Virus record (IMG/VR): IMGVR_UViG_3300010297_000070
Coordinates: 1-26,006 of that record
DNA: 26,006 nt
Strand: one strand, 5' to 3'
DNA from: a virus
The notes below the pieces were generated by a model. It saw nothing but the letters and a program-made list of their open reading frames with translations. It was not told the DNA's origin and ran no database searches. Numbering within the stretch: the stretch's first letter is position 1; each line of letters opens with the position of its first letter. The position numbers were made by a program, and so were the translations under genes. Shown piece after piece: positions 4,308 to 20,097 of this stretch.

Positions 4308-5189
4308 ATGCGTTTATTTGATGGAAATGGCGTTAATAACGTCGATAAGCATAAAATTTTAGCTAAGTACCTCTCTAATCCTAGAGGTCGTCATATTTTG
4401 GCGAAGTACTTACAGTCTCCTATTAAGAGACAACTTCTTTACGAAGGTGTTTTAAGAAAAGCATTTTACGTAGAGGAACTTCTTCCCGGAGCTAGTCCTT
4501 TCTATGATAAGGACGTTAACGTTCCAGCTTACGTAGTAAGTGAAGAAGCTGATAGTATTATGGCAGTTACTAGGTCTCGCAGAATTGACGTTCCTATGTT
4601 CGAAATTGCTGCGAATCCTATGATTCCTTTTACTACTATCCAAGAAAAGCGTTTTGATATCGTAGAAAGAACTTTGGAGCAGGGTAAGTCCAGCATCATG
4701 GAACAAGAAGACACTCGTGGCTTCAACTTGATCGCTGCTACTGCTGCACAGAACACTGCTAACGGAATCAACGCTGGTTTGACTTCTGCTACTTTGAATC
4801 CTTTGATTCTTGCAGACGCTTTCGGTGAGATTGAAAAATGGCGACTACGTGTTAGCCGTGTATTTATCAATCCTCGTGACTACGCTGACGTAAGAAAGTT
4901 TGATCGTGATATCCTTGATATCGAGAGCCAAGCTTTCCTACTTAAGACTGGTATCCAGAACTCTCTTTGGGGAGCTCACTTGATTCAGTCTACTGTAGTT
5001 CCTGTAGGAACTGCTTATGTAGTTGCTGAGCCTGAGTATTTTGGTAGAATGCCAATCCGAACTGACTTGACTATCCTTTCTGCTGACGATAATCGCCAGA
5101 GAATGATTGGATTCTCAATGTTCGAGATTATTGGTATCGCTGTTACCAATCCTCTTGGTCTTGCTGAAATCACTATTAACAGAGTTTAA
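4308..5189 (+). CDS. Major capsid protein (HK97-like fold)
   Basis: A 293-residue protein matching a major capsid family of large myoviruses. The N-terminus has a duplicated motif (KILAKYLSNPRGR, HILAKYLQSPIKR), then 'RKAFYVEELLPGASPFYDKD', an E-loop-like stretch, 'MFEIAANPMIPFTTI', and the conserved block 'RVFINPRDYADVRKFDRD' with 'LLKTGIQNSLWGAHLI' and 'VVAEPEYFGRMPIR'. It forms the hexamers and pentamers of the icosahedral shell. A candidate maturation site is L44-Y-E46/G47, before the conserved region, fitting the (L/I)-x-E rule. The ribosome site (AAGGAAGGGG) is strong, codon use is biased towards CGN Arg, and a strong terminator follows. No frameshift or truncation is seen. Confidence 0.88.
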   Translation: MRLFDGNGVNNVDKHKILAKYLSNPRGRHILAKYLQSPIKRQLLYEGVLRKAFYVEELLPGASPFYDKDVNVPAYVVSEEADSIMAVTRSRRIDVPMFEIAANPMIPFTTIQEKRFDIVERTLEQGKSSIMEQEDTRGFNLIAATAAQNTANGINAGLTSATLNPLILADAFGEIEKWRLRVSRVFINPRDYADVRKFDRDILDIESQAFLLKTGIQNSLWGAHLIQSTVVPVGTAYVVAEPEYFGRMPIRTDLTILSADDNRQRMIGFSMFEIIGIAVTNPLGLAEITINRV

Positions 5190-5210
5190 TAGCTAATATC
5201 AGATATATTA

Positions 5211-5233
5211 GGGCTCCTTCGGGAGCCCTTTTT
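5211..5233 (+). terminator. Intrinsic terminator after the capsid gene (UUCG loop)
   Basis: A 7-bp stem GGGCTCC / GGAGCCC (5211-5217, 5222-5228) closes a TTCG loop, the very stable cUUCGg tetraloop context, followed by five T. It lies 22 bases after the capsid stop and ends the head transcription unit. Confidence 0.93.
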
Positions 5234-5311: not shown

Positions 5312-6226
5312 ATGGCTAAACAATATTTAAAAGCTTTAAAAACTATCAATTTCTCCGATACAGGAATCACCCTAAGCTCAGGGAGAGTTTTTTATTTAGA
5401 AGGTTCTACCGTATATGCGTATTCAGGAGCTGAGGATAAAGTTATCTCCATTAGCGAGATGGGTGATTGGGTTCTTAAACTAGAGCCAAGTGCTTCTGTT
5501 GAGAAAACAGACTCTTTCGCTTTCAAGACTTTTATGTCTGAGCAAGGGAAATCACAAGCCCGTCCCACAGCTAAACCTTCTTCTACAACTTATCAGAATG
5601 TGACAACATCTGTCCCTGACTCTATTAAGTTCCAACCTAAGAGTGGTCATCAAGCTTTTGTAAGGCCGTTGGCTAATGCAGCTTTCAATTCTCCTAAAGC
5701 AGAAGTTAGAGCTATGCCTTCTCCTAGAGTAGAAGTTCCTCATATTAAAACCGCTACTGTAGAAACTCCTACAGGCAAGAAAGTTATGGACTTGACTAAT
5801 GGAGGTCAGGTTAAAGAAGAGAAATCCCCTGTAGGGAATAGATTTTCTTTAGTAGATATACCAGAAGGTAAAGAAGCTACTCCAATGGACTTAGATAATT
5901 TGTATAAGCAGAGTAATCAAAGTCCTGATGGTATGTATTCTCTAGTAGAATCTATTGAGGTAGCTATTACAGAAAAAGCAGAAGTTTCTGAATTCGAGTC
6001 TCAATGGAAAGAGTATATGGATATAAAAAAGAAAGCGGATAAAGTTAAGTTCATTGAAGGGTTAACTTTTCCCGGAATCCTCCAATTCTTTATCGATAAA
6101 ACTAGAGATCTAGTTCGACAGGCAGAAGAAGGTACTTATAGTCTTTCTAAGCCAATGCAGAAGATGCATAAAAATTTAATTTCCACTATGGAAACTCAGT
6201 TAAAAGTCGGAAGATTAGACGTTTAA
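5312..6226 (+). CDS. Unrecognised protein transcribed alone between two terminators
   Basis: A 304-residue protein of unknown family. Residues 1-60 look like a small beta domain (short hydrophobic strands, 'SGRVFYLEGSTVYAYSG'). About 70-180 is a Pro/Ser/Thr/Val-rich, probably disordered linker. About 220-304 is charged and helical ('EFESQWKEYMDIKKKADKVK', 'FFIDKTRDLVRQAEEG'). It has no Cys. The start has a good AAAGGTG site. With strong terminators on both sides, it needs its own promoter unless there is read-through. The helical end joined by a long linker suggests a virion or assembly adaptor, but nothing shows a specific function. Confidence 0.72.
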   Translation: MAKQYLKALKTINFSDTGITLSSGRVFYLEGSTVYAYSGAEDKVISISEMGDWVLKLEPSASVEKTDSFAFKTFMSEQGKSQARPTAKPSSTTYQNVTTSVPDSIKFQPKSGHQAFVRPLANAAFNSPKAEVRAMPSPRVEVPHIKTATVETPTGKKVMDLTNGGQVKEEKSPVGNRFSLVDIPEGKEATPMDLDNLYKQSNQSPDGMYSLVESIEVAITEKAEVSEFESQWKEYMDIKKKADKVKFIEGLTFPGILQFFIDKTRDLVRQAEEGTYSLSKPMQKMHKNLISTMETQLKVGRLDV

Positions 6227-6241
6227 AATTTTAATTAAACT

Positions 6242-6272
6242 AGAGCCTATGTTTTTACATAGGCTCTTTTTT
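6242..6272 (+). terminator. Intrinsic terminator after the 5312 gene
   Basis: A perfect 10-bp stem AGAGCCTATG / CATAGGCTCT (6242-6251, 6258-6267) with a 6-base loop, followed by a T run to 6272. It closes a one-gene unit. Confidence 0.93.
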
Positions 6273-6819: not shown

Positions 6820-7092
6820 ATGCCTTTTTATTCATATAGATGTGAAGATTGTAATCATGAGTTTGACGAGATGAGGACTTTCAGTAAGATGGACGCTCCT
6901 ATCGATTGCCCTGAGTGTAATAGTCATACACCTACAAGATATTTTAATGTAGGGGAAAATTTAAACGTTGCTTATGTTGGTTATAATTGGCAAGGTAAAA
7001 ATTGGAATCTAGCTAAACATCGTATGGATCAAAGTAAAAAAATGGAAAGACTTCAACGAGATGAATGGGGACCAAAGCCGGGGGAGAAATAG
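6820..7092 (+). CDS. FmdB-like zinc-ribbon protein (copy 1)
   Basis: A 90-residue protein starting 'MPFYSYRCEDCNHEF', the typical opening of FmdB-family zinc ribbons. The full zinc site is C8-x2-C11 and C30-x2-C33. The C-terminal 45 residues are basic and aromatic ('YVGYNWQGKNW', 'AKHRMDQSKKMERLQRDEW'). An AGAGGAG ribosome site lies in the end of the preceding SWIM-like gene, one base away, so the two are probably co-translated. The name FmdB comes from a putative regulator of formamidase genes; in phages, proteins with this fold have no settled role. A second member is at 16598. Ends in TAG. Confidence 0.8.
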   Translation: MPFYSYRCEDCNHEFDEMRTFSKMDAPIDCPECNSHTPTRYFNVGENLNVAYVGYNWQGKNWNLAKHRMDQSKKMERLQRDEWGPKPGEK

Positions 7093-9951: not shown

Positions 9952-9965
9952 TAAAAATTAATATA

Positions 9966-9996
9966 AATCCCCTTGATTATTCAGGGGGATTTTTTT
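9966..9996 (+). terminator. Intrinsic terminator after the fibre-like gene
   Basis: An 11-bp stem AATCCCCTTGA / TCAGGGGGATT (9966-9976, 9981-9991) with one G-T wobble and a TTAT loop, then a run of seven T (9990-9996). It lies 15 bases after the stop codon and 12 bases before the next start codon. Confidence 0.92.
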
Positions 9997-10008
9997 ATTA
10001 TTAGATAT

Positions 10009-11457
10009 ATGTTAAAAAAACCTAAAGTAGGGGTATATCTGTTCGATAATGGAGCAGATGTTAAAATATCCGAATTTAAAAAATTAGTTAAGTTTTTGGA
10101 GAGAGATTACTATATTCAAGTGATCTCAGAATTAAAGTTACCCTCAAGCATTAATCACACTTTTTTAGAAAATGCTTTAAATTCTACTTATTACTTTCCT
10201 TTTGATGTTCGAATCTTTTTCTCTCAAGTCACAGAAGATAAAGTTAAAGATCTAACTTCTAAAAATCTTTTTTTAGATAAATTAAACCAAGATACAACAG
10301 ACTACGTCAAAGATACTTTAGACGAATATTTCTTTGAAATCAGTAAGGATTTAAACTCTTACGGGTTAGAAAAGACCTTAAGTATTTGCAACTTTGCAGA
10401 AAGCTTCAATCTTTCTTTGTTAGGAAAAGCAAAGGCTCTTAATGATTTGAAGCAACATTCTAGAATACTTTTATTAGATGGTCAAAGTAAGAGGTACTCT
10501 TGTCCAAAAGAATACTTAAAAGTAACGGATATAATCGTATTACATGATTATATTGATGTATCTGCTTTTGATACAGGAAAGCCCGTAGTTTTATATCTAT
10601 CTTCCACTAAACCTTTAGAAGATTTAGAGCTTACCTTGAGAAGAGATCTACTTCAATCTAAAATGGTTCAGTTTGTGGTAACTTCTAACCCTAAAGTAAG
10701 AAGTTTGATGAACCTTCATTCTATAGATGTTATTTATATGGATAACCCTGACCCAGAGCTCCTTTTAAAAAGCCTTGCTAAAATTTACAAAGACTTTAAT
10801 CCAAAAGAAGAGTTAGTTATTTATACTGAACATGAACTAGATGATAAGAGTGGTAATCGAATTACCATACCTTCAGATATTTGCAAATCATTTAATTATA
10901 AAGATTTAGCATTAAGTTCTTTCATTGAATTTAATCAAGAGATTAAAGAGTACGAAAGTTACTTAGAGCAAGAATATATCTGGAGGTGTTGGAAGATTTA
11001 CCAATCCTGTAGGTTATTGTCTAACCATAAGATCCTTTATATAGGAGAGAATTTAAATTTAGTGTCTTATTTAAATGATAATAACTTTGATGTAGTATTT
11101 TTTTACACAGGAAATGGTAAAAACCCTTGCGATAAGAGAAAAAATAAATACAAAGATATTTCTTTGTGCAAAGATTTATTTTCAATTCAAGACTATAACA
11201 CTGAAGACAGGTTAGTTATTTGTGATTCTGTATTGGAAGATTATAGTTATATTGACTCTTTAGGTCTATTGAACTTTATTAAGACATCAGGATTCAAGAG
11301 AATAGGGATCACTTTTAAAAGAGTTAATAACCTCTTTGTTAATGTTAATACTATATCTCCTTACTTAAGTAATTTAGGTTTTCGCTTGAACGGGAATGGT
11401 TTTACAGAAACAAAAGAGGATTCTCAGAACTCTTTTATTTATTTGATTTGCGATTAA
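10009..11457 (+). CDS. Two-domain Rossmann-like protein (GT-like plus methyltransferase-like)
   Basis: A 482-residue protein unlike its structural neighbours. Residues 1-260 have alternating strands and helices like a GT-B glycosyltransferase ('KVGVYLFDNG', 'VTDIIVLHDYIDVSAF', 'KPVVLYLSST', 'MVQFVVTSNPKVRSLM', 'IDVIYMDNPDPELLL'). Residues 338-482 read like a class I methyltransferase ('HKILYIGENLNLVSYLNDNNFDVVFF', 'DRLVICDSVLEDYSYIDSLGLLNFI'), but the SAM loop is GENLN rather than GxGxG, so it may be inactive. A TTG start at 9973 lies inside the terminator hairpin and is unlikely; the ATG at 10009 fits the first strand, but no SD is visible. Cys residues are scattered. AGA/AGG Arg codons dominate (13 of 16), as in most genes here, so there is no sign of recent transfer. 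It may modify a virion or host-surface component. Fold moderately sure; activity unknown. Confidence 0.6.
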   Translation: MLKKPKVGVYLFDNGADVKISEFKKLVKFLERDYYIQVISELKLPSSINHTFLENALNSTYYFPFDVRIFFSQVTEDKVKDLTSKNLFLDKLNQDTTDYVKDTLDEYFFEISKDLNSYGLEKTLSICNFAESFNLSLLGKAKALNDLKQHSRILLLDGQSKRYSCPKEYLKVTDIIVLHDYIDVSAFDTGKPVVLYLSSTKPLEDLELTLRRDLLQSKMVQFVVTSNPKVRSLMNLHSIDVIYMDNPDPELLLKSLAKIYKDFNPKEELVIYTEHELDDKSGNRITIPSDICKSFNYKDLALSSFIEFNQEIKEYESYLEQEYIWRCWKIYQSCRLLSNHKILYIGENLNLVSYLNDNNFDVVFFYTGNGKNPCDKRKNKYKDISLCKDLFSIQDYNTEDRLVICDSVLEDYSYIDSLGLLNFIKTSGFKRIGITFKRVNNLFVNVNTISPYLSNLGFRLNGNGFTETKEDSQNSFIYLICD

Positions 11458-12607: not shown

Positions 12608-12640
12608 TTAAACGCTTATTTACATGAGCAAAGCGTTTAA
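12608..12640 (+). promoter_or_regulatory. Hairpin with the start codon of the next gene in its loop
   Basis: TTAAACGCTT (12608-12617) and AAGCGTTTAA (12631-12640) are perfect 10-bp inverted arms. The 13-base loop contains the ATG (12624-12626) of the 12624 gene. The gene has no visible SD. The right arm is coding (codons 3-6), so both coding and leader sequence fit the pairing. It could present or limit the start codon. Confidence 0.55.
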
Positions 12641-13028
12641 AAGAGGTCAATTACTGGAAGAAAAAGATCTTGTTATTAAGATTAGGGATTCTAAAGCGAT
12701 ACTATTCGACCCTTATCAGATAAATTATTCTATTTATGATGATACAGGAACTACTCCCTTATTGTTAAATAACCATTCTTCTAGAGTACCCGTTAAAAAA
12801 GATGTGGGTATTTTCTACGCAGTCTACCCTATTCCTCATAATGCTAATTTCGGTCAATGGAGAATTGTTTGGCATATTCAAGAATTGGAATCCTCTTCAA
12901 TTCTTGATTTTGAGCAGTGCTTTAATATCGTCACCGCAGATTCATTTGTTCCTATTAATAAAAATGAGTTTGTTTCAAGAATCGAAGATATTTTAGACAT
13001 TACCATAACTGACCCATCAGGCTGTTAA
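12624..13028 (+). CDS. Adaptor-like beta-sandwich protein, apparently truncated paralog (array member 3)
   Basis: A 134-residue protein clearly related to the N-terminal part of the 13088 protein: 'MSKAFKRGQLLEEKDLVIKIRD' against 'MSRAFYKGSELTDTDLVITFRD', 'ILFDPYQINYSIYD' against 'ALFDPYSVTYGILD', and 'WHIQELESSS' against 'WNIQELSTSS'. After the beta domain it runs 'NEFVSRIEDILDITITDP' and stops, where the 13088 protein enters its helical connector domain. It thus looks like a duplicate lacking that domain. No SD is visible; the start codon is in a hairpin loop. Likely a neck component, or a scaffold for the ring formed by its longer paralog. Confidence 0.68.
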   Translation: MSKAFKRGQLLEEKDLVIKIRDSKAILFDPYQINYSIYDDTGTTPLLLNNHSSRVPVKKDVGIFYAVYPIPHNANFGQWRIVWHIQELESSSILDFEQCFNIVTADSFVPINKNEFVSRIEDILDITITDPSGC

Positions 13029-13087: not shown

Positions 13088-13969
13088 ATGTCTAGAGCAT
13101 TTTATAAGGGTAGTGAGCTTACTGATACTGATTTAGTTATCACTTTCAGAGATGAAAATGGAGCTTTGTTTGACCCATATTCCGTAACCTATGGAATATT
13201 AGATCCAGATGGAGTTCTTATTGATAATATTAACACTAGACCTGCAGAAAAGAAATCTCTAGGTAAATGGTACGCTCCTTATATTATTGAAGATGATGCA
13301 AAAGAAGGTGATTATAAAATCCAGTGGAATATACAAGAATTATCTACGTCCTCTGTTCGCCAGTATGTTAACCAGTTTAACGTTTTGGGCGATTGTACTA
13401 TTTCTAAGTTAAACTATCCTGATTCAGTATCTTCCTTAATTCATAAGTTAAGAATTCGATTAGGGGATAACGATCCTGATAGAAATTACAGATTCGCTCC
13501 TCCTAAGTCTCCCAATGAAGTTAATAACTTCACTACTAATCATGGTTATATTTGGCAAGATTACGAACTCCTCTCTTTTTTAGAGGACGCTACAGATACT
13601 ATTAATTGGTATCTAAGAGGAACTAATTACACTATTGGAAGTATTCCAGCTCCATTGAGACCTATTGCATTAATGGGGGCTATGGTTCATGCGATTGATC
13701 AGCTCTCTTTAATTTGGATTCAAGATGAGTTTGGTTATTCTCTAAATGGTATCTCTTTAGACCTCTCTAAATCTGAAAAGTATAGATCAATGGTAGATGG
13801 TTTAGCAGAGAGATTTGAAACTAAGATGGACAACCTTCAAGCTAACAGATCGCACAAAATTAAAGGTCTTAGACAAGCTAGGTTTTCCGTAGGTTATGGT
13901 TATGGACAAGGTCAATATTCTTTTAGAGGAGCAGGTGCAGGTTCTTGGAGAAGAAGTAATAGAGTTTAA
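13088..13969 (+). CDS. Head-tail adaptor/connector candidate with N-terminal Ig-like domain
   Basis: A 293-residue protein. Residues 1-102 are the beta-sandwich shared with the three preceding genes. Residues 105-250 are helical and look like a portal-binding adaptor: 'SLIHKLRIRLGDNDPDRNYRFAP', then 'WQDYELLSFLEDATDTIN', then 'LRPIALMGAMVHAIDQLSLIW'. Such adaptors (gp6/gp15-type) form a ring beneath the portal that links it to the tail. The end is Gly/Tyr/Arg-rich ('GYGYGQGQYSFRGAG'). A strong GGAGGG ribosome site precedes the ATG, unlike the preceding small genes, which suggests higher expression. Order (after head genes, before sheath) fits. Adaptor role moderately sure. Confidence 0.62.
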   Translation: MSRAFYKGSELTDTDLVITFRDENGALFDPYSVTYGILDPDGVLIDNINTRPAEKKSLGKWYAPYIIEDDAKEGDYKIQWNIQELSTSSVRQYVNQFNVLGDCTISKLNYPDSVSSLIHKLRIRLGDNDPDRNYRFAPPKSPNEVNNFTTNHGYIWQDYELLSFLEDATDTINWYLRGTNYTIGSIPAPLRPIALMGAMVHAIDQLSLIWIQDEFGYSLNGISLDLSKSEKYRSMVDGLAERFETKMDNLQANRSHKIKGLRQARFSVGYGYGQGQYSFRGAGAGSWRRSNRV

Positions 13970-16597: not shown

Positions 16598-16933
16598 ATG
16601 CCTTTATATGAATTTAAATGCGAGAATGGACATATTACAGAACATCTTTGTAAAGACCCTTCCGTAATTAAAGAATGTACGGTTTGTAACTCCTCAGTAG
16701 AAAGAAAGATAGGAAGTAGATTTTCTCCAGCGTTTGCTGATTCTACTTCTATGAAAAATAATTTAGATATTTATATTGGTAGAGACGCTAACCAAAGATG
16801 GGAGCATTACGAAAAGAAGTTTAAACATAAACAAGACGTAATGCAAAAGAATCCCGGATGTGATGTAGTTCCCGATAGTTCGGGTGGTTATGTGGCTGTA
16901 CCGAAAGAGACAAAACCGACTTCAGAGGATTAA
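16598..16933 (+). CDS. FmdB-like zinc-ribbon protein (copy 2, variant site)
   Basis: A 111-residue protein starting 'MPLYEFKCENGHITEH'. It resembles the 6820 protein, but the first knuckle is C8-x2-G11-H12 instead of C-x2-C, while the second is intact (C27-x2-C30). H12 or C18 might replace the missing ligand. The rest is basic then acidic ('WEHYEKKFKHKQDVMQ', 'CDVVPDSSGGYVAVPKETKP'). AAGGAG lies at the end of the preceding gene. It stands immediately before the sheath leader. Whether it is in the virion or a regulator is not shown. Confidence 0.74.
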   Translation: MPLYEFKCENGHITEHLCKDPSVIKECTVCNSSVERKIGSRFSPAFADSTSMKNNLDIYIGRDANQRWEHYEKKFKHKQDVMQKNPGCDVVPDSSGGYVAVPKETKPTSED

Positions 16934-17028: not shown

Positions 17029-20000
17029 ATGGCAGATAGAATCTCGTTTACTCAGTATCAACCACCCGGAGTGTATACTCAATCTATCTTGACGAATGAG
17101 CAAGTTAACCTAACTCAAGGAGCTAGAATTCCTTTGGTTATTGGTCCAGCTTCTCCTTTGATTGAGAATGTTAATGTTCCGGTAGTTCGTGGTTCTAATA
17201 GAAACTTCCCCGTTTTCATAGAAAGAGAAGATCTTTCTGCTCAAGCAAATGGAACTAACACTTCTTTTGTTACTAGATTAGGACCTCTTATTGATCCTTT
17301 TTCAGCAGCAGCTACTACTAATCCAGAAAATGTTGTAGTTCTTGTTGACGATCAAACAGTTACTCCTACTAGTTTGGTAGCGGAAGATTCTAACGGTCAA
17401 GGAGTTATTAATTTTCCTTTTGCTCCCGATGCAGGATCTGTAGTTTTAGTTTCCTATTATTACATCGTGAGGGATAGAGAAGTTACTTTAGAAGATTTAT
17501 CTAGTCAAGTGGATGGCTCTGCTACTACTTTTTACACTCGAAATAGAAGAGTGGTAGATAATACAGACACAGGAACAGTAACTAATGATCCAGTTTATAT
17601 TACTGTTTTAGTTAATAATGTAGCTACTATAGCTCAATCTCTTAATGGAGAGATGGGTCAATTCACATTAGCTTCTGCTCCTGCTTCCGGATCAACTTTG
17701 ACTGTAAGTTACAGTTATTCTGACCATATCGATTTAAATGATCCTCTTCCAAACAAATATGTACACTCTATTTCAAGAGTAGGTAATGTACCTTCTCGTG
17801 CAGATTACATCAATGGGATTGATTACAACTTCACCAATGAAGCAGCTATAGATAATGTTACTTTCCATGAAATTGCTTGGGGAAATTCTTTCGTAATTTC
17901 TTCTATGTTACAAGAAGATAGTACGTTTAGCTATGACTGGGTTCCCGGAGAAAATCTCCATACTAGTGTTTTTGATTATAAGGTTTTTGGAGAAGCTCTT
18001 AAGCCAGTCGATTTAGTAGGTGGGGTTACTAAGGTATTCCAAACTAAGTGGCCTATCATGAAAGGTGATGGTAAAGGTAAGCACCTTTTTGATGCGGGTA
18101 TCGGTTCTGAGTTCTTTGACGTTTACTTCGGAGAGACTACTGATGAAGCTCTTCCGGGAGGGAATACTACTTCTGGGAATAAAGAGGTTCTAGGGTCTCC
18201 AGTTTCTGTAGTTAGAGTTGAAGGAAATACAGGCCTAATTTACTTAGATACAGCGATTGACCCTGCTACCATTAATGTTTATGGAGTTTATTACACTAAC
18301 TTCATGGTAGACGACTCTTACACTATTACCAAGGTTTCAGATACTACCGGATTAGTGCCTAGTACTTACAAAGTCCAAAGCCCTAATACAGGATTTCTAC
18401 CTTCTGTAACGGAAGGTACTCACTCCTTAACAGTTGCTTTAACTTCAGGAACTGTTTTAGGCGATGAACTTTACTGGACTCAAGAAACTGATTTAGGAAC
18501 TCTCCCTAGATATCAAGATGTTTTTGTTAATAGAAATCAATCTCAAGATGAGGTAGTTCGTATTACTATTGATTCCGTGATTACTTCCCCATCCAATAAC
18601 ACTTATCAGTTTTCAGTAACTTCTACTGTAGCTGGAACTACAGATCCGGGGTTAACTGGATCTAATACTGCAGCTAATACTAACTTAACAGGTATGTTGA
18701 GAGATGGTTTGAATAATAACCAAGGTATCTCTGGAGAACCTTATTTAGATCCTACTACAGGATTTTATTTCGATTTCAGATTTCCTACAGGTTTGTTAGC
18801 GGGAGATTATTTCGAATTTAATATTAATTCTGAAGGTGAGTTTGACTTCTTCAGTACTGATATTCTAGGGTTAGATCCACTTTACAATAATATGATGCCG
18901 GGGCTTTTAGTTCTAACCGAGGAACGTAACACTCTAAATCAAATATCTGTAGGTCAAAGTGTTGATTTAAGGTCTTTCAAAGCTGCTGGCGCAGAGCCGG
19001 AAATTGGAGACACTTATTATGTTACTTATAAGTATTACAGAATCGATTTCAGAACTAGATTGTACGCTAGGTTCTCTGATGTAGAAGCAGCGTTTGGGTT
19101 AGCAAACTTATCCAACCCTTTATCTTTAGCTGGAAAGCTTCATTTTGATAATGATGTTGCTGCGGTAGCTATTAAGCCTCTAACCCTTTACACTGATCAA
19201 ACATTTCAAGATTATTTGAAGTCTGGGCAGTTTGGGGTTAATCTTGATCCTGTCACTGAGTCTAACCTTTATTTAGAAGCTATCGCTGAATTAGAAGAAC
19301 CTTTTGAGGATAACAGAACTCCTTATAGTATGGTTCCTCTAACTGACGATTCTGTTGTTTGGGCTGAGTTGAAAGATCACGTAGAGAAAATGTCTTCTAC
19401 GTTCTTTAGTTCGGAACGATACTCCGTTTATGGATTTTCTCCTAATAGAAAAGATAATTTTGTAAGAAGTAGAGTTCTTAACTTCAAATCAAATAGAACT
19501 ATGGTAACTTATCCAACTTCTGTTGTTATGGATGTAGAAACAGAAAGAGGTAGGTTCGATACAGTTAGAGCTCCCGGTTGGTTCTATGCTTGTGCGATTT
19601 CTGGTTTAATCACCAGACCATTTGCATCGCCTTCTGATCCTCTAACTAATAGATCTGTAAGCGGTTTTCGAGAAACAGGTATTTTTAGAAATCAATTACA
19701 GTTGAACGAATTAGCTCAAGAAGGTGTTACTATTCTTGAGACTCGAACTCCTAATGTAGTGATTCGAGATGCTCTTAACACTGATATGACTTCAGTGTTA
19801 ACTAGAGAGCCTACGGTAACGTTTATATCAGACTTTGTTGAACAACAAGCTAGAGTTATTCTTAATAGATTTATTGGACGTAAGTTTATTAACACTATTC
19901 TAGGTGAGATTGAGTCTGTATTCTCGGCCTACTTGTCTGAACTCAAATTAAGTGAATTGATTACAGACTTTAGAAATGTCGAGGTTGCCCAGAATGAGAA

Positions 20001-20097
20001 TGACCCAACAATCGTGGAAGTATCTGCCGAGTACGCTCCTGTATTGCCAGTCAAGTACATTTTGGTGACATTTCGCATTCGTGGAACTCTTGGATAA
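17029..20097 (+). CDS. Tail sheath protein, enlarged by beta modules
   Basis: A 1022-residue protein with both ends of the contractile sheath family. Near the N-terminus 'YQPPGVYTQS' is the typical PGVY motif. The C-terminal ~280 residues hold the conserved core ('WFYACAISGLITR', 'GVTILETRTPNVVIRDAL', 'DFVEQQARVILNRFIGRKF', 'RNVEVAQNEN'). It forms the helical sheath that contracts to drive the tube. It is much longer than usual (commonly about 450-700); the surplus lies at about residues 65-740 and includes three related beta modules (67-147, 154-232, about 328-425), with 'INFPFAPDAGSVVLVSYYY', 'FTLASAPASGSTLTVSYSY' and 'IYLDTAIDPATINVYGVYY' as matching ends. These are probably exposed. Start: AAGGA nine bases before the ATG. 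Expected to be abundant, with the tube gene directly after. Very sure of family. Confidence 0.92.
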   Translation: MADRISFTQYQPPGVYTQSILTNEQVNLTQGARIPLVIGPASPLIENVNVPVVRGSNRNFPVFIEREDLSAQANGTNTSFVTRLGPLIDPFSAAATTNPENVVVLVDDQTVTPTSLVAEDSNGQGVINFPFAPDAGSVVLVSYYYIVRDREVTLEDLSSQVDGSATTFYTRNRRVVDNTDTGTVTNDPVYITVLVNNVATIAQSLNGEMGQFTLASAPASGSTLTVSYSYSDHIDLNDPLPNKYVHSISRVGNVPSRADYINGIDYNFTNEAAIDNVTFHEIAWGNSFVISSMLQEDSTFSYDWVPGENLHTSVFDYKVFGEALKPVDLVGGVTKVFQTKWPIMKGDGKGKHLFDAGIGSEFFDVYFGETTDEALPGGNTTSGNKEVLGSPVSVVRVEGNTGLIYLDTAIDPATINVYGVYYTNFMVDDSYTITKVSDTTGLVPSTYKVQSPNTGFLPSVTEGTHSLTVALTSGTVLGDELYWTQETDLGTLPRYQDVFVNRNQSQDEVVRITIDSVITSPSNNTYQFSVTSTVAGTTDPGLTGSNTAANTNLTGMLRDGLNNNQGISGEPYLDPTTGFYFDFRFPTGLLAGDYFEFNINSEGEFDFFSTDILGLDPLYNNMMPGLLVLTEERNTLNQISVGQSVDLRSFKAAGAEPEIGDTYYVTYKYYRIDFRTRLYARFSDVEAAFGLANLSNPLSLAGKLHFDNDVAAVAIKPLTLYTDQTFQDYLKSGQFGVNLDPVTESNLYLEAIAELEEPFEDNRTPYSMVPLTDDSVVWAELKDHVEKMSSTFFSSERYSVYGFSPNRKDNFVRSRVLNFKSNRTMVTYPTSVVMDVETERGRFDTVRAPGWFYACAISGLITRPFASPSDPLTNRSVSGFRETGIFRNQLQLNELAQEGVTILETRTPNVVIRDALNTDMTSVLTREPTVTFISDFVEQQARVILNRFIGRKFINTILGEIESVFSAYLSELKLSELITDFRNVEVAQNENDPTIVEVSAEYAPVLPVKYILVTFRIRGTLG
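17227..18303 (+). repeat. Three related beta modules inside the sheath gene
   Basis: Protein-level repeats: copy 1 at 17227-17469, copy 2 at 17488-17724, copy 3 about 18010-18303. Copies 1 and 2 are adjacent and share 'EDLSxQxxGxxTxFxTR' at the start and '(A)PxxGSxxxVSYxY' at the end. Copy 3 keeps 'VTKVFQTKWP' and 'DPATINVYGVYY' with a longer insert. No nucleotide identity is evident, so the duplication is old. Confidence 0.72.

Follow-up and report, generated by a model that had tools for sequence, protein, structure and literature searches.

A predicted enzyme-like gene between the capsid and head-tail adaptor genes of a Bacillus phage G-like jumbo phage

What is a gene for an enzyme-like protein doing among the genes from which a phage particle is built? 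The question was raised by a sequence-only reading of the window, by which we mean the whole stretch of DNA analyzed, the 26-kb (26,006-nt) virus record IMGVR_UViG_3300010297_000070. That reading picked out a gene for a 482-residue protein made of two Rossmann-type halves, the first resembling a GT-B glycosyltransferase (GT) and the second a class I methyltransferase (MTase), and proposed that the protein either modifies virion proteins or is an enzyme fold reused as part of the particle. The major head protein encoded in the window shares 51% identity with its counterpart in the 485-kb uncultured phage LR745208, 40% with the one in Tunturiibacter phage Tunturi_5, and about 36% (35.6%) with the one in Bacillus phage G. 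Because of these matches, we assign the window, by homology, to a Bacillus-phage-G-like jumbo myovirus, of which it is a fragment. No relatives of the major head protein from which a host might be inferred were found in genome contigs. The genes that frame the question are as follows.

772-2472, head maturation protease (PHROG match)
4308-5189, + strand, major head protein (phrog_2522, E 2.5e-53; 82% identical to that of sister contig L002)
10009-11457, + strand, 482-aa two-domain enzyme-like protein (P0001; ORF with a full-length homologue in L002)
13088-13969, + strand, head-tail adaptor/connector homologue (tblastn match, E 2e-26, to the protein annotated as head-tail connector in Tunturi_5)
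17029-20097, + strand, tail sheath (phrog_2839, E 1.4e-21; PF17482, E 1.8e-6)

The gene, its start region and its homologue in a sister phage

The 482 codons run without interruption and lie, as the sequence-only reading had it, among virion genes. On one side is the gene for the major capsid protein and on the other that for the head-tail adaptor, and PHROG matches among the neighbors name the tail sheath as well as the head maturation protease and the major head protein. A sister contig, L002 (IMGVR_UViG_3300006923_000036), runs colinear with the window over a stretch that starts two genes ahead of the one for the capsid protein and ends at the tail gene. In the identical place (L002:16002-17405), it has a gene for a 467-aa homologue that is 30% identical over its full length. 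Because of this colinear homologue, we regard the ORF, on sequence grounds, as a genuine gene rather than a chance frame, and as one that has been kept in the lineage.

The identity of flanking genes between the window and L002 ranges from 31% to 82%. The 482-aa gene is less conserved than the capsid and adaptor genes and about as divergent as the decoration-type neighbors at 5312 (32%), 11907 (33%) and 12238 (31%). With several virion neighbors equally divergent, we dropped the idea that it evolves unusually fast. Divergence typical of virion neighbors, together with the position of the gene, would instead suit a protein that is itself part of the particle, a pseudoenzyme serving as a neck, whisker or decoration protein, and the loss of the SAM motif in both homologues described below points the same way. 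However, the proteins flanking it have the look of β-sandwiches or coiled coils, as read from their sequences, and not of Rossmann folds, and the region preceding its ATG start codon also argues against a virion component. In the window, the gene is set apart from the virion gene upstream by a strong terminator. Furthermore, no Shine-Dalgarno sequence is detectable before the gene or its sister homologue, whereas most neighboring and structural genes have one, so that a high-copy product is not suggested. On balance, we consider a virion component unlikely, although it is a serious contender.

9965-9992, + strand, intrinsic terminator between the upstream virion gene and the 482-aa gene (12-bp stem plus T tract; −18.6 kcal/mol, z −3.8)

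The 3′ end of this terminator lies 16 nt upstream of the ATG and, because of its strength and position, the 482-aa gene may not be simply co-transcribed with the upstream virion gene. L002 has no counterpart of it upstream of the 467-aa homologue. Each of the two phages has a −10-like hexamer that ends 6 to 7 nt upstream of an ATG, namely TATTAT within 9996-10011 of the window and TATAAT within L002:15996-16010 of the sister. Together with the missing Shine-Dalgarno sequence, this would fit a leaderless transcript, in DNA in which promoter-like sites are common by chance. A candidate promoter lying over the terminator (9973-10001) scored no better than chance and was discarded. Strong intrinsic terminators were seen at three places in the window (5210-5229, 6242-6267 and 9965-9992), one following the capsid gene and the others following two genes farther on. 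A scan for terminator-like sites found 21, compared with 10.4 expected from shuffled sequences, a hint that expression of the structural block may be graded. The gene is low in GC (29%), and with a terminator directly upstream it might have been taken for a recently inserted moron; we rejected this because the sister has the gene at the same place without that terminator.

Beyond the sister, searches of named phages, viral contigs (four protein or profile queries) and genome contigs turned up no homologue of the 482-aa protein. Neither did searches of the complete records of phage G, Tunturi_5 and LR745208 or of 80 loci from the wider group, to which the tail gene had led. The best reading of these searches is that the protein is lineage-restricted. 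Pfam, NCBIfam and PADLOC assigned it to no family, Pfam returned no match at E values up to 10 (GT profiles, such as PF13439 and PF00534, included), and no PDB sequence match was meaningful. Among PHROG families, only phrog_7837 (function unknown) was matched, marginally (E 0.0075 over 58 residues). The sequence-only reading had named homology to a known structural protein family as evidence that would count against it; neither PHROG nor PDB sequence searches revealed any such family.

Enzyme genes in the structural blocks of relatives

The sequence-only reading also held that an enzyme-like gene is unusual in a head-to-tail interval, and this did not survive comparison with relatives, which hold clear enzyme genes in the same block. 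The window, L002 and L019 have ~0 kb between the adaptor and the tail gene, whereas this interval measures 1 to 8 kb in 15 other relatives (L026, L029, L031, L034, L038, L053, L063, L066, L068, L069, L070, L084, L085, L088 and L096), and ORFs within it encode ThyX, topoisomerase IB-like, Band_7 and DUF7487 proteins. By sequence comparison, this interval is an expandable accessory region. In Tunturi_5, gp321 (L006:406-4494), annotated as a MutT/NUDIX hydrolase, is encoded between the head-tail connector and a minor tail protein. Because of its Pfam domains, ART-PolyVal (ADP-ribosyltransferase, E 6e-48), 2_5_RNA_ligase2 (2′-5′ RNA ligase)/Acb1-like, GNAT and SprT-like, we class gp321 as a polyvalent protein, a class described in PMC5512222. 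It shares with the 482-aa protein an enzyme-like character and a place in the head-to-tail block; unlike that protein, to which it is unrelated in sequence, it has many clear enzyme domains, and its gene is located after that of the adaptor. In LR745208, a 1,229-aa protein encoded directly 3′ of the capsid gene (L005:21071-24760) has repeated homing-endonuclease-like and DNA methylase-like segments, as read from its sequence. Enzyme genes are a regular feature of the head-to-tail block in phage-G-like phages.

These genes at the adaptor-tail junction of relatives raise the alternative that the 482-aa protein serves in host takeover or counter-defense and is possibly packaged and injected, as polyvalent proteins of related phages may be. 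That the gene may form a separate transcription unit would agree with such a role. On the other hand, it lies upstream of the adaptor gene and not at the adaptor-tail junction, its location has stayed the same through a long divergence, and neither PADLOC (anti-phage defense proteins) nor Pfam gave a match. We consider this alternative rather unlikely.

A predicted methyltransferase-like domain with an altered SAM site

10954-11454, + strand, class I MTase-like domain, residues ~316 to 482 (VIA-align and Foldseek on the predicted model)
11044-11058, + strand, position of SAM motif I, residues 346 to 350, GENLN (alignment of the two homologues plus strand order of the model)

We modeled the 482-aa protein with AlphaFold2 from an alignment of only two sequences, and the model is of low confidence overall (mean pLDDT 47.6, pTM 0.34), with core strands of the C-terminal domain at a pLDDT of ~60 to 72 (~55 to 75 when residues 160 to 245 are counted with them). 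When residues 311 to 482 of this low-confidence model were compared with known structures by VIA-align, the best match was to 3e8s (Z 11.7, 150 residues aligned, 3.5 Å), and SAM-dependent MTases made up 50 of the 50 top rows listed, the fold having been retrieved without being named. Foldseek matched the domain with probability 1.00 to 4qdk (ChlM) and 3h2b, and among viral structures it again matched MTases; its best-ranked row was a spurious pyruvate kinase. The predicted strand order, terminal hairpin included, is that of class I MTases, so that in fold, strand order and C-terminal hairpin the domain resembles 3e8s, ChlM and the MTase domain of bacterial Hen1 (3jwg). It differs from these enzymes in the cofactor motifs described below, in its identity to the structural matches (7 to 16%), and in having no profile match. 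The profile search of both halves proposed by the sequence-only reading returned neither an MTase nor a GT family; specifically, neither Pfam nor NCBIfam gave an MTase match, and local-mode hhalign of the C-terminal domain against an MTase profile built from related phages scored at the level of the controls. A class I MTase-like fold for the C-terminal part is supported at the level of prediction only.

We also considered whether the domain might be the C-lobe of a GT-B enzyme, but the terminal hairpin and the uniform list of MTase matches speak against it. The low pLDDT and pTM, the missing profile support and the spurious top Foldseek row might further mean that the fold assignment is an artefact and the protein an unrelated orphan. 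Against this stand the better-predicted core strands, the class I MTase order with its final hairpin and, again, the uniform match list, and we regard an artefact as highly improbable.

The sequence-only reading had noted GENLN in place of the GxGxG of the SAM loop, and the alignment of the two homologues upheld this. The loop reads Y-I-G-E-N-L-N in the window (G346 to N350) and GENAL in the sister, with YIGEN common to both. Thus, after strand 1, the second and third glycines of motif I are absent from both proteins. Strand 2 also lacks the usual acidic residue at its end; after strand 361-366, the window reads T-G-N and the sister S-E-N, with no conserved D or E. Because GEN replaces GxGxG and no acidic residue follows strand 2 in either homologue, canonical SAM-dependent methylation by the predicted domain is unlikely. 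Since YIGEN is found in both, the loop does not appear to have decayed at random, and a rebuilt ligand site or a pseudoenzyme seems more likely than canonical SAM-dependent methylation.

An active but unusual enzyme, either an MTase that binds SAM through the noncanonical GEN loop or a sugar-modifying enzyme, would account for the elements that are invariant in both homologues on the class I ligand-binding side, namely YIGEN, CDS after strand 4 and FxRxNNLF after strand 5. However, in this comparison of only two sequences, ligand-side loops of the C-terminal domain are conserved at 46% and opposite loops at 33%, which is not significant (P = 0.19 for ligand-side loops versus everything else), and the acidic residue is missing from both proteins. 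We consider an active enzyme of this kind quite improbable. Loop conservation was likewise rejected as evidence that an active site has been maintained, the C-terminal domain giving no significant difference and the N-terminal half the opposite trend.

The N-terminal half and the possible function of the protein

10009-10458, + strand, poorly predicted N-terminal part, residues 1 to 150 (pLDDT ~22 to 50 in both models; predicted β-α-β start, then long helices)
10459-10803, + strand, Rossmann-like region resembling a GT-B N-lobe, residues 151 to 265 (VIA-align on the sister's equivalent region; GKPVVL strand conserved)

Of the two Rossmann halves originally proposed, the C-terminal one held up in the structural comparison, as a prediction, whereas the GT-B-like one shrank to at most a single lobe. 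The N-terminal half, folded alone from the sister's sequence, gave a mean pLDDT of 45.4. In the region equivalent to residues ~150 to 265, VIA-align matched GtfC (4w6q; Z 6.0), Gtf3 (3qkw; 5.7), PglA (8dqd; 5.6), and UDP-GlcNAc 2-epimerases and LpxB (5w8n) at ~5, all short of Z 8, which is given as the noise level of the method. The best rows were mostly GT-B-fold proteins, mixed with unrelated folds. This weak likeness to the GT-B N-lobe is not extended by a recognizable C-lobe, the donor lobe that binds the sugar nucleotide, or by a match to any GT family. In the relatives, PF13439 was found in 0 of 48 and PF00534 in none above the cut-off. We treat the GT-B-like half as suggestive, a lead rather than a result; because the best Z score is 6.0 and only one Rossmann lobe is visible, the name glycosyltransferase cannot be claimed for the 482-aa protein.

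There is precedent for glycan-related genes in such a setting. Jumbo phage XacN1 has two GTs, ORF328 and ORF334, whose numbers fall between those of its baseplate and head genes, and a proteomic analysis of this phage detected glycoproteins (PMC5852040). The likeness is that of a jumbo phage with sugar-transfer genes among baseplate and head genes; the difference is that the XacN1 GTs belong to recognizable families, whereas the 482-aa protein has only a predicted fold. Mycobacteriophage capsids and tail tubes are reported to bear glycans (Freeman 2023, as cited in PMC12619734).

The explanation that we tentatively prefer, at somewhat below an even chance, is that the 482-aa protein is a lineage-restricted, enzyme-derived accessory protein, possibly a pseudoenzyme, that acts on surface-exposed virion proteins from adjacent genes, probably by handling glycans. 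It would consist of a class I MTase-like domain with a rebuilt SAM site joined to a Rossmann-like half that may resemble the acceptor-side (N) lobe of GT-B enzymes. It would act most likely during particle assembly, on the surface-exposed β-sandwich proteins encoded on both sides of it, and would either help to assemble or recognize a glycan on them or bind a nucleotide or sugar ligand without methylating. The conserved place of the gene, the MTase-like fold, the GT-B-leaning rows of the N-terminal half, the GEN loop and the XacN1 and mycobacteriophage precedents argue for such a role. Against it are models with a pLDDT of 45 to 48 built on two sequences, the lack of MTase or GT profile support, N-terminal matches below Z 8 with no donor lobe, ligand-face loops that are the least conserved part of the N-terminal half (17%), the absence of any other recognized glycan-pathway gene among the window genes scanned, and the absence of the gene from the other relatives searched.

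A more specific version, which we regard as improbable, is that the MTase fold, its SAM pocket rebuilt around the invariant YIGEN, and a lone GT-B-type lobe form a ligand-binding or glycan-handling module at the virion surface, so that in giant phages a pseudoenzyme would have become part of the particle. Should the predicted fold be right, a giant-phage lineage keeps an enzyme fold inside its particle-building block after losing the canonical cofactor site, which, if true, would make the locus a testable case for glycan decoration of virions or for enzyme folds becoming virion parts.

Two further observations concern neighboring genes of the structural block. The product of 12624-13028 resembles the N-terminal β-sandwich domain of the adaptor and is 41% identical to the N terminus of the sister's adaptor, suggesting a duplicated decoration domain of which the sister has no separate copy. 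In addition, two FmdB-type zinc-ribbon genes lie inside the block, at 6820-7092 and 16598-16933 (Zn_ribbon_8, E 5e-13 and 3e-8, respectively).
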